From positions 1 through 64,000 of the IMG/VR virus record IMGVR_UViG_3300046692_000091: a stretch of DNA of 64,000 nt, one strand, 5' to 3'. The notes under the pieces are model-generated. The model had not been told where the DNA came from. It did no database searches and saw nothing but the letters and a program-made list of their open reading frames with translations. How positions within the stretch are numbered: the stretch's first letter is position 1; the number at the start of each line of letters is the position of its first letter. Of this stretch, positions 28,034 through 57,376 are shown piece by piece. The DNA is from a virus. A program made the translations under genes and the position numbers.

Positions 28034-30250
28034 ATGAATCTCGATTCACTGTTTAAACATAATGCCCAGAAGCAATACACCCGCTTCTCGATGGAAGACT
28101 TCCTCGGCGCACTGGAAGCAGAACAGAACTACGGCGACAGCGTTCTGGCTAAAGGTAAAGACCTGGTTGGTTTCATTAGCCAAGAAAACTTCGGTGACAT
28201 CTCGGAAGTCCAACGCGGCACCGCTGGTCAAATGTATACCGACATCGGTACTACCATGAAGAAGTTCGGTTTCGAACACTTCAAAGAAGGCCGTGGCTAC
28301 ATCACCGAGAACCAACAGCGCGCTGCTACAGTAGCTGCTATTGCATGTGCTGATCCAGAAGCTTACAAACGCGCTCTGCGTGCTGTAGCTAAAGAAGTCA
28401 TTTCCAACGAAGACAACGTTTACAACGTACGTCACGAATTCGGCGGTCCTGCTGGTGCTCTGCAAGTATTCCAAGACCACCTGGGTCTGGAAAACTACAA
28501 CGAAAAATCTCAACGTGACTTCCGCGTCGTAACTGTTGGTTACAACCTCGAAGCTTCCCGTCAGGATGAGTTCGCTGAACGTCTGTACCCTACTACCGTT
28601 ATCAACCCAGTTGAAGGTGGTGTTGTTCAGGTTCTTCCTTACATCGCTGTAATGAAAGACGTCTACCACGCTGTATCGGGTGCCAAACTGGCAAACGCAG
28701 AAGTAAACATGGTAGAAGCATACCGTGACCCTTCGATCCTGGATGACAACTGCACCGACCTGATCCCTGCTGTTGATCCAGATGGTACCAACCTGAAGTT
28801 CTTCACTGATCCTGCTCTGGTTCCACATCACGTTGTTACCAACGAACAGAACATGTCGGTTACCACTGGTCCTCTGCGTCCAAACGTTAAGATCGACCTG
28901 ATGGGTAACTCGAACGCCAACCTGCTGATCAACAAAGGCATGCTGGACATTTCTGATACCATCGATCCAAGTGGTCGTCTGAAAGCTCTGTACGTCAAGT
29001 TCGATGGCAAAGTAATCCGTTTCGTTGTTGACCGTCTGCCTACCGCTGTGTTCCAGCCTGGTCTGGTTGGTGATACTCGTCAAGCTAAACTGGACTTCGT
29101 AACTGACGACCTGGTTGTTGGTGCTGACACCAAAGCAATCGACGGTTCGATCTCTGCTAACATGCAGGAACTGGTTAACCGTAAGTGGACTGCACGTGTA
29201 AGCGTATCGTTCAGCGGTCATGTATCCACTTCCCGTGGTGATGCTCGTTACGGCGCTGCTGGTATCGAAATCGACCGTATCGTCGACGAAGACCGTAAGC
29301 TGATCTCGATCGAATCCGGTGACGGTGCTGATCTGGTTGCTGCTATCGGCGATCTGGAAGTTGTAGGTTACGACCTGGACGTTAAGTTCACCAACACTAA
29401 CCGCCGTCAGCGTGGTCACCTGTTGCAAACTCGCGCTATCCAGTTCCGTCACCCAATCCCGATGCACGCTCCGGTTACCCTGCCAATGTCCACCATGGAC
29501 GAGCAAGGCCCAGGCGACGTCGTTAAGGCGCTGACTGTTAACACCAACATCCGTAACAGCAACAACGCTGTTAAACGTCTGTTGAACTACCTGGCACAAC
29601 TGAAAGAAGTTGTTGGTAATGGTTACGACCGTCCTAAGTTCGGCGCTGTTGAAGGTGCTCTGAGCATCATGATGCGTCCAACCTACCGTGAAGGTTCGTT
29701 GCACCTGCCTGACCACATCGACACCCTGAAGTCTCAGGATCGCTGGCAGGACGTTTGCAGCACCATCTTGAACTTCGCTAAAGGTATCCTGTTCCCAGCA
29801 TACCGCGAGTCCAACATCGAAGCTGCTTTCCGTGTGATCTCGGGTAACCAAGACGAGAAGCCAATGTTCATCTTCGCTACCGACAAAGAAATCGGTAACT
29901 ACCTGATGACTCAAGGCGACGACCGTACCCTGGGCGCAATCCTCGAGTACGACCTGGTAACTACCAACAACGAACTGTTCGATGGTAAACTGGTAATCGT
30001 TCCTACTCGTAAGAACCCAACCGAAAACGACATCCTGTCCTTCGGCCAGTTCTTCTACGTATCGACCGTCATCGCTGACCTGCCTATCACCCGTGGTGGC
30101 AACCAAGTGACTCGTGAGATCGCAGCTGTTCCGTTCAACCTGCACGTGAACAACATCCCATTCGCAATCAACCTGACCATCACTGGTCTGGAAGAAGTGA
30201 TGGGCAAATCGCAGTGGAACAAACCACTGATCGATGCTATCTCTGCTTGA
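28034..30250 (+). CDS. Major capsid protein, phiKZ-like
   Basis: 738 residues, close to the length of the phiKZ major capsid protein. The codon choice is far more uniform than in neighbours (GGT, GCT, CTG, GAA, AAC, CGT), the mark of a very highly expressed gene; this bias also leaves a false 699-codon frame open on the other strand. AAGGAATAGAAT gives a good ribosome site. An N-terminal helical, Glu/Lys-rich part of about 150 residues could be a processed delta-like region, then a long alpha/beta body fits the HK97 fold. It is placed upstream of the portal gene as in related phages. In-frame coding-like sequence continues past the TGA (see 30251). Confidence 0.85.
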   Translation: MNLDSLFKHNAQKQYTRFSMEDFLGALEAEQNYGDSVLAKGKDLVGFISQENFGDISEVQRGTAGQMYTDIGTTMKKFGFEHFKEGRGYITENQQRAATVAAIACADPEAYKRALRAVAKEVISNEDNVYNVRHEFGGPAGALQVFQDHLGLENYNEKSQRDFRVVTVGYNLEASRQDEFAERLYPTTVINPVEGGVVQVLPYIAVMKDVYHAVSGAKLANAEVNMVEAYRDPSILDDNCTDLIPAVDPDGTNLKFFTDPALVPHHVVTNEQNMSVTTGPLRPNVKIDLMGNSNANLLINKGMLDISDTIDPSGRLKALYVKFDGKVIRFVVDRLPTAVFQPGLVGDTRQAKLDFVTDDLVVGADTKAIDGSISANMQELVNRKWTARVSVSFSGHVSTSRGDARYGAAGIEIDRIVDEDRKLISIESGDGADLVAAIGDLEVVGYDLDVKFTNTNRRQRGHLLQTRAIQFRHPIPMHAPVTLPMSTMDEQGPGDVVKALTVNTNIRNSNNAVKRLLNYLAQLKEVVGNGYDRPKFGAVEGALSIMMRPTYREGSLHLPDHIDTLKSQDRWQDVCSTILNFAKGILFPAYRESNIEAAFRVISGNQDEKPMFIFATDKEIGNYLMTQGDDRTLGAILEYDLVTTNNELFDGKLVIVPTRKNPTENDILSFGQFFYVSTVIADLPITRGGNQVTREIAAVPFNLHVNNIPFAINLTITGLEEVMGKSQWNKPLIDAISA

Positions 30251-30331
30251 AGGAATCCGGGTAACATCCGTCGACTAGAAGATGGATCAATCCGGTATCT
30301 GGAAGATGGTCCCGAGAGGTACCTAGAGTAG
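30251..30331 (+). other. In-frame LEDG-repeat continuation after the capsid stop
   Basis: Directly after the TGA (30248-30250) the same frame stays open for 26 codons to TAG at 30329-30331 and encodes two LEDG units and a final YLE (RRLEDGSIRYLEDG, then PERYLE). Such repeats are common at the ends of phage structural proteins, and a related one ends the 56837 protein here (ARYLEDGDARLMETGD). It is either a readthrough extension of the capsid protein or a recently lost tail. Confidence 0.6.
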
Positions 30332-30335
30332 CAAA

Positions 30336-30367
30336 CATAACTGCCTCCCCTAGCGGGAGGCTTTATG
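30336..30367 (+). terminator. Boxed terminator after the capsid gene
   Basis: CATAA (30336), GCCTCCC (30343-30349), a 5-base loop, GGGAGGC (30355-30361), TTTATG. It starts 5 bases after the TAG of the in-frame continuation. Confidence 0.85.
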
Positions 30368-30375
30368 CCGTGTTA

Positions 30376-30404
30376 GACTGCAATTAATTTCAGATCTATA
30401 TTAC
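30376..30404 (+). promoter_or_regulatory. Early-type promoter in the capsid region
   Basis: TATATTAC at 30397-30404 with a poor upstream box (GACTGCAAT) at the same distance, 47 bases before the ATG at 30451. It suggests that the following genes are expressed early even though capsid genes surround them. Confidence 0.65.
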
Positions 30405-30450: not shown

Positions 30451-31047
30451 ATGAATTACTTTGAACGCTTTGAAAGAGTGCTCAACCAAAAGTTCAATGG
30501 AGACATGCAGGCTTGCCTGAGCTCCACTGGATTTGATAGCTACAAAGATCGACCCATACGTATCGTTGAGATTGATCGTCGTCCTAAAAAGGAACCTGTC
30601 TATGTGACAGTTCCAGTTGAAGTTGTAACCCCAGTTGTTGAACCAGAGGAAGTGAATGATATTGAGTTTGATGTAATCGATCTAGAAGCAGAAATGGAAA
30701 GAAGGAGAAAAAGTACTGAGACTAATAATCCTGTACAACCTGAACCAGCCATCGAAGATTCGAAAGCTGTTCCTCTTTCTTTGACCGTACGGGATTCGAC
30801 CAAGTCGTTATCCAGGGGGTCGGTTTTACAAAAGAAGAAGAGTCAAGCTACCAAGACCTCGTTCACCGCAACCGGTGGCAATAGAGCCCAACGTAGAGCC
30901 GCCCAAGCCCTCATGCGCAAAGGTGGTAAAACGTCAAGTTCGAGTACTCGGAAAGACGATGAACGAAACAGTGGTGGTTCACAAAAAGCCGACGCACCGA
31001 AACGTGTAAGTTTGAGTGAACTGGAATTCGGGTTTAGATTGGAATAG
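30451..31047 (+). CDS. Largely disordered basic-tailed protein, 198 aa
   Basis: First gene behind the 30397 element; the ribosome site is weak (GATCTTGAGATCC). Short ordered start, then a Val/Pro/Glu-rich stretch (VPVEVVTPVVEPEE, about 50-66), and a Ser/Lys/Arg-rich end containing GGNRAQRRAAQAL (about 142-154). Probably a linker or scaffold-type protein; nucleic-acid contact is possible through the basic part. Ends 4 bases before the next start. Confidence 0.7.
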   Translation: MNYFERFERVLNQKFNGDMQACLSSTGFDSYKDRPIRIVEIDRRPKKEPVYVTVPVEVVTPVVEPEEVNDIEFDVIDLEAEMERRRKSTETNNPVQPEPAIEDSKAVPLSLTVRDSTKSLSRGSVLQKKKSQATKTSFTATGGNRAQRRAAQALMRKGGKTSSSSTRKDDERNSGGSQKADAPKRVSLSELEFGFRLE

Positions 31048-56836: not shown

Positions 56837-57376
56837 ATGATCACTACAGATCGTTTCCCGTATGACATGCCTTCCCGCGACGCGCTCGTGGAACAGGTGA
56901 ACCGTGACTTGCAACGGAACTACAAACCGAACCAAGTTAGTTTTGAAGACATGTTCTTTGCCCCTCTGCCTGCTATCCCTGGCCGTACGTTTATCGAGAT
57001 GACTAGTCGCCTTACAGGCCTAAAGGAATTCTTTGTATATCGTCGGTTAGATCTGGCGAATCCTAAGGCACTGGGTACAAGCACTCGCATTAAGGTATTG
57101 GGTCGTCCGACTCCAGCCAGTATTGCAAACGAAATCAATCGTAGCCGTAAGATGACATTCGGCCCAGATGACCTTTCGTTCTCAACAGTTGTTATTAACA
57201 ACTCTGAGGAAACATTCGTCTATCGCTTGAAAGCGATGACAGGCAGCTACGCATACTTCGGTGAAACAGATGTTATCGTTGAAGTGTTAGAAGCTAATCC
57301 GTATGCACGTTATCTCGAAGACGGTGATGCTCGGTTGATGGAAACCGGTGACATTCGTGAACTCGAACACGTCTGA
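56837..57376 (+). CDS. Protein with LEDG-type C-terminal repeat, 179 aa
   Basis: ATG 56837 after GACCGAGGTTTAAAC. The body is soluble and mixed alpha/beta. The end reads ARYLEDGDARLMETGDIREL, the R-x-L-E-D-G type repeat found at the ends of many phage structural proteins; a close match lies in frame after the capsid stop at 30251. Probably a virion or assembly protein. It overlaps no neighbour and stands 10 bases before the endolysin gene. Confidence 0.75.
   Translation: MITTDRFPYDMPSRDALVEQVNRDLQRNYKPNQVSFEDMFFAPLPAIPGRTFIEMTSRLTGLKEFFVYRRLDLANPKALGTSTRIKVLGRPTPASIANEINRSRKMTFGPDDLSFSTVVINNSEETFVYRLKAMTGSYAYFGETDVIVEVLEANPYARYLEDGDARLMETGDIRELEHV

Follow-up and report, generated by a model that had tools for sequence, protein, structure and literature searches.

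In the RNA phage Q-beta, readthrough of the UGA codon that closes the coat gene yields A1, a minor and longer coat protein found in the virion. In-frame readthrough likewise serves the luteovirus coat protein and MuLV gag-pol, in the latter case with a downstream structure at short spacing. In tailed dsDNA phages, minor capsid proteins are produced by frameshifting, as in T7 (10B), T3, Lactobacillus phage A2, and Listeria phage PSA (PMC5009743, where MuLV gag-pol readthrough is also covered). The locus considered here, namely the end of the major capsid protein (MCP) gene of a phiKZ-like phage, resembles Q-beta A1 in that readthrough of a UGA closing a coat gene is proposed. Unlike Q-beta, a small RNA phage with a large folded extension, the phage here is a dsDNA jumbo phage whose predicted repeat tail has 27 residues. 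Like T7, T3, A2, and PSA, it is a tailed dsDNA phage, in which one gene would give two capsid forms by recoding near its 3' end; whereas the frame changes in those phages, here the frame would be kept and the stop itself decoded. As luteovirus and MuLV readthrough involves eukaryotic ribosomes and other stops or contexts, these systems offer a mechanistic parallel only.

The window, i.e., the whole 64,000-nucleotide stretch that was analyzed, was taken from a virus record of 314,814 bases and belongs to a Pseudomonas phiKZ-like jumbo phage. Its nearest annotated relatives are the phiKZ-like phages D6, Psa21, and RVTF4, with 81-85% DNA identity in the capsid region. Both the PHROG match (Table 1) and homology over residues 3-734 with phiKZ gp120 (PDB 8y6v) place the capsid gene product among the phiKZ-type MCPs, to which phiKp24 gp372 (PMC9700779) is also homologous. 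No relative of the MCP was found in the genome_contigs collection. Opposite the capsid gene, an antisense open frame of 699 aa runs on the minus strand (28046-30145), and is probably a by-product of codon bias.

Table 1. Positions of the features considered in the window, and tails of the second type found in other phages.
Feature	Position	Strand	Details
Major capsid protein (MCP) gene	28034..30250	+	738 aa, TGA end; PHROG 3231, E 9e-237
Leaky UGA stop, proposed readthrough site	30248..30250	+	context GCT TGA A
Proposed readthrough tail, RNPGNIRRLEDGSIRYLEDGPERYLE	30251..30331	+	26 sense codons at 30251-30328; TAG at 30329-30331
5' arm of proposed stimulatory stem, GGG-N6-CCGUC	30259..30272	+	starts 8 nt past UGA
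3' arm of proposed stem, GAUGG-N-CCC	30305..30313	+	from arm comparison
Hairpin, then TTTATG	30343..30361	+	directly past the stop of the tail
R-x-LEDG module, in frame, end of second virion structural protein	57308..57373	+	protein 56837-57376, PHROG 2935
Second-type tail, Moabite			TLGEAFENPLSGFDPA
Second-type tail, L057			TLAEAFEETLPGFDPA
Second-type tail, SNUABM_54			LKDELLVTTLIGFTPEQVR
Second-type tail, L051			LSDVIQNTKLTGFTPEQVN
Second-type tail, PCH45			LSEIFKDEVLDGFALPAP...
Second-type tail, L059			LQEIFADEVMNGFGLPAS...
Second-type tail, L058			TPLSQAIVNPQLNGFTKP

An earlier note on this DNA had described a frame that stays open for 26 codons beyond the capsid TGA and encodes LEDG repeats; both sequence and coordinates proved exact. 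The related repeat reported at the end of the protein encoded from 56837 is real as well (RYLEDGDARLMETGDIRELEHV), being kept in seven of seven aligned sequences. When all six frames of the window were scanned for the motif, R-x-LEDG units proved to be clustered at these two places only. Searching Pfam gave no match for the window tail, and no Ig-like (Big_2) extension was seen there. With the TGA read as tryptophan, the extended MCP would yield the peptides SQWNKPLIDAISAWR and YLEDGPER. As to the claim that such a repeat exceeds what random sequence would give, in-frame conservation bears it out, whereas 26 open codons are not unusual in themselves. Indeed, Psa21 genes are followed by anything from 0 to 390 open in-frame codons, with many of these extensions being at least 20 codons long. 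Because post-stop open frames of this length are common, conservation is the deciding test.

In the first eight phages considered (Psa21, D6, RVTF4, PhiPA3, PA1C, Phabio, Viktualia, and SL2), the MCP gene ends in TGA and is followed by a tail of R-x-x-E-[D/N/S]-G repeats that closes with R-x-L-E or a close variant. The survey, drawing on IMG/VR contigs and named phages, added phiKZ, 201phi2-1, Noxifer, and several uncultured phages, such that 22 distinct phiKZ-like tails were obtained, all of them starting after TGA and all open. A search with the consensus tail peptide located the peptide 3' of the capsid gene in some 60 phage records (best E value, 5e-8). In nearly all of the annotated records, no feature is annotated under the match; Viktualia carries a 32-codon gene call at the tail in a different frame. 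The earlier note had held that homologous phages lacking the open frame or the LEDG motif would speak against a tail. Such relatives exist, yet within the Pseudomonas phiKZ-like clade, extending from phiKZ to Noxifer, only one was found, namely L050, a relative of Noxifer. Several less close IMG/VR relatives (50-58% MCP identity) end in TAA and lack the tail. As expected of programmed readthrough, the in-frame extension is, as far as comparison of these phages reveals, conserved as protein across species.

Selection on the tail was addressed through dN/dS. In the capsid frame, the three subgroups gave values of 0.37 (n = 8), 0.32 (n = 6), and 0.48 (n = 3), with the two other frames yielding 0.63-3.2. 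Accordingly, the Ka/Ks comparison over the tail codons that had been suggested as a check came out at about 0.3-0.5 in frame 0 only. The tail was also evolved neutrally on the MCP tree, scaled to the observed divergence, in 1000 simulations involving 21 tails. Observed amino acid identity among the tails was 0.52, as compared with 0.29 +/- 0.03 under neutrality, and the excess of third-position changes was 1.40 as compared with 1.01; neither value was reached in any of the 1000 runs. The same was true of all 21 tails being free of stops, the simulated mean being 8.8 open tails out of 21. By these measures, the tail evolves as protein. As a control, 63 window genes and their orthologues in Psa21 were compared with regard to their post-stop extensions, D6 serving as the third phage where available. 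No other comparable extension outside a gene was kept in all three phages; the other high scorers run into or sit within the next gene, and the remaining extensions are short, low-scoring, or not common to the three phages.

In bacteria, UGA is leakier when the next base is other than U. In the 22 tails, the base following TGA is A in 15, G in six, C in one, and T in none, as compared with TGAT in 12 of 23 other TGA-ended genes of the Psa21 stretch. Moreover, 21 of the 22 have an Ala, Pro, or Gly codon just before the TGA. The same stop is thus kept, in a context regarded as leaky, as would be expected of programmed readthrough. When jumbo phages were considered more widely, each of the 31 distinct TGA-ended MCPs, including those with tails of other sequence types, was followed by an in-frame tail of at least 16 codons. 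By contrast, the extension was 10 codons or shorter in 20 of 21 TAA-ended MCPs. This coupling of TGA and tail gave a Fisher p value of 7e-13 in a smaller hand count (n = 28) that is uncorrected for kinship. Nevertheless, the switch is visible between close pairs. The MCP of L050 is 84% identical to that of its Noxifer relative, yet the gene ends in TAA and has no tail; likewise, the MCPs of L054-L056, which are 68-70% identical to that of their Moabite relative, are TAA-ended and tail-less. On these counts, the choice of stop codon is an integral feature of the arrangement.

Downstream of the UGA, complementary RNA arms are seen. In all 19 alignable tails, GGG, GGA, or GGU lies exactly 8 nt past the TGA and is followed by CCGUY or a near variant. 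Further 3', the phiKZ-like tails present GACGG, GAUGG, or AGCGG, followed by CCC or something close to it. Changes in the arms are partly compensatory, with CCGUC/GACGG in some tails corresponding to CCGCU/AGCGG in others, and GGA/UCC appearing in L023. Native arm pairs were more stable than swapped pairs (-13.6 vs. -11.8 kcal/mol; permutation p 0.003, and p 0.013 within subgroups). In the subgroup of the window, native arms did not clearly exceed swapped ones, and the repeats there allow a competing local hairpin. Total folding energy was ordinary relative to synonymous versions generated from the codon usage of the MCP gene (mean z, -0.2). RNAalifold, when given the codon alignment, did not recover the outer arms, as codon gaps displace them. 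Covariation thus lends moderate support to a predicted RNA stem, the presence of which is likely in the groups of phiKZ, PhiPA3, and 201phi2-1 and possible in the phage of the window.

Together, these comparisons argue for programmed UGA readthrough that would yield a minor, C-terminally extended MCP, a reading that we hold with a probability of roughly 0.8. The minor readthrough form offered as one of two options in the earlier note thus gains strong comparative support from the kept TGA, purifying selection in frame 0, the coupling of TGA and tail, the consistent lack of T after the stop, and RNA arms lying at a constant distance from it. Because an in-frame repeat tail is conserved after the stop, it is very probable that a minority of shell proteins is longer. 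In the proposed course of events, most ribosomes would terminate at the UGA to release the 738-aa MCP, with a minority decoding the codon, most likely as tryptophan through near-cognate tRNA-Trp. The leaky context, in which an Ala, Pro, or Gly codon precedes the stop and a non-U base follows, would assist, as would, probably, the RNA stem beginning 8 nt downstream. The ribosome would then continue to the second stop, adding 1 + 26 residues, and the extended MCP would co-assemble into the shell at low copy number.

The phage of the window has 12 tRNA matches, including tRNA-Trp(CCA), at G000:C1:201599-208110, outside the window. No UCA anticodon was present among those of its tRNA loci that were read. 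The genomes of L012, L023, and L024 also contain tRNA-Trp. Since 201phi2-1 and Goslar have TGA tails with zero tRNA matches, a phage-encoded suppressor tRNA does not seem to be needed, and was set aside as a requirement. A +1 or -1 frameshift into the tail was also rejected, as the tail lies in frame 0 and, in several phages, the other frames soon run into a stop. The +1 frame does so in both the window and D6, such that nothing like the T7 10B frameshift was found.

Other accounts of the open frame were weighed. Given that an open in-frame stretch past a stop is what a truncated gene would be expected to look like early on, the tail could be the untranslated relic of a longer MCP cut off by a nonsense mutation. 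This is close to the second option of the earlier note, a recent TGA that removed a tail retained by relatives. The comparison refutes it: across the surveyed phiKZ-like phages, whose MCPs range from 96% down to 48% identity to that of the window, the TGA is shared and no sense codon is found in its place. Moreover, purifying selection acts on the tail, and none of the 22 tails contains a stop. On the grounds of conservation and selection, the relic was rejected and is scarcely credible. The tail might instead be a separate small peptide made by re-initiation or from an internal start. A purine-rich GGAAAGGG-like sequence past the TGA in the phiKZ group and an ATG or TTG at codon 9 in some tails lend themselves to this; however, the frame of the tail is always that of the MCP, and in 18 of the 22 tails, among them that of the window, none of the first 12 codons is ATG, GTG, or TTG. 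As a conserved start codon is absent, re-initiation was rejected as very unlikely. An RNA or DNA element, such as a 3' end structure, rather than a peptide may underlie the conservation, considering that complementary arms and a hairpin occur in and past the tail. This, too, is improbable, given the codon-position pattern, the dN/dS value below 1 in frame 0 only, and the absence of stops; coding and structure can, moreover, coexist, as in the readthrough model. The hairpin directly past the tail probably marks where the MCP transcript ends. A comparable hairpin lies 3' of the tail in the eight relatives first examined, and a hairpin-plus-T scan scored that of the window on the minus strand only.

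With readthrough as the preferred reading, the question becomes what the extended MCP would do. The solved phiKZ capsid chain (PDB 8y6v) comprises the 747 aa of the stop-terminated form, such that, unlike in the proposal, the extended form is absent from it. No chain in the PDB matches the tail, and AlphaFold models of the MCP with its tail and of the 56837 protein were of low confidence, with no confident tail structure. In the phiKp24 capsid, six MCP C-terminal loops meet at the center of the hexamer (PMC9700779), and the tail would for this reason be expected to emerge near that point. As the same module is conserved at the end of a second structural protein, structural use of the peptide is favored, and the R-x-LEDG tail is probably a flexible decoration or docking peptide. 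The main rival, which is appreciably less likely, accepts the same readthrough but assigns the extended MCP to assembly, with a few copies marking a special site (e.g., the portal vertex or a contact with the inner body) or with the prohead protease trimming the tail. A unique vertex would be consistent with a form present in few copies, and glutamate, after which the prohead protease processes the head proteins of giant phages (PMC5694885), is abundant in the tail. Against this, the R-x-LEDG module persists at the end of another structural protein and also ends an Ig-like extension in L030, neither of which settles the location.

Phages too distant for their tails to be aligned with that of the window have a second, unrelated conserved peptide after the TGA, L...L-x-GF-x-P (Table 1). 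It lies directly past the MCP TGA in L039, L043, L051, L057, L058, L059, and L069. In comparable pairs, frame 0 of these second-type tails showed pS of 0.66-0.77 and pN of 0.20-0.32. In L026, L031, and L035, a similar SLPGFQTEQV is found in frame ahead of a TAA. The Goslar MCP ends in TGA with a 28-codon extension. In L027, TGA is followed by a Big_2 Ig-like domain (4e-9), although an ATG at the third codon makes an alternative start possible for this extension; the closest relatives of L027 (93%) end in TAA and lack an Ig domain. In L030, TAA is followed by Big_2 (5e-7) and then by RLTEDGEMRTTEDGTPRYSEL, with TEDG repeats at its end. Both L027 and L030 are single metagenomic contigs and were thus given little weight. 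We lean toward viewing the end of the capsid gene in phiKZ-type jumbo phages, which form a nucleus, as a modular readthrough port, at which UGA would attach unrelated modules to a minority of subunits, with TAA being used where no module is present. The modules would be R-x-LEDG in Pseudomonas phages, L-x-GF-x-P in phages such as Moabite, PCH45, and SNUABM_54, and the Ig-like domain in one contig.

Among the open-access papers searched, no report of readthrough in phiKZ-type phages was found, and the words readthrough, frameshift, and stop codon are absent from a 2026 jumbo-phage review. As such, capsid forms generated by recoding are known, and readthrough in phiKZ-type phages is apparently undescribed. 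Although phiKZ is among the best-studied phages and its capsid has been solved, a conserved second form of the MCP was apparently missed because annotation ends at the UGA. If the proposal is correct, the virion would contain a low-copy display peptide open to removal or labeling, and UGA readthrough would stand beside frameshifting as a route to minor capsid proteins in tailed dsDNA phages. The coupling of UGA and tail would then amount to a natural series of gains and losses.

A small Psa21 gene (L045:5870-6253) and its D6 orthologue end in TGA and share a similar extension of 22-25 codons (score, 63) that is absent from the window, possibly representing a second, weaker case of readthrough. 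Finally, the motif TATATTAC occurs at 30397-30404, between the hairpin of the MCP gene and the gene at 30451, with the same motif or TATATTA being seen at this place in most relatives; we take it to resemble the early promoter of phiKZ.
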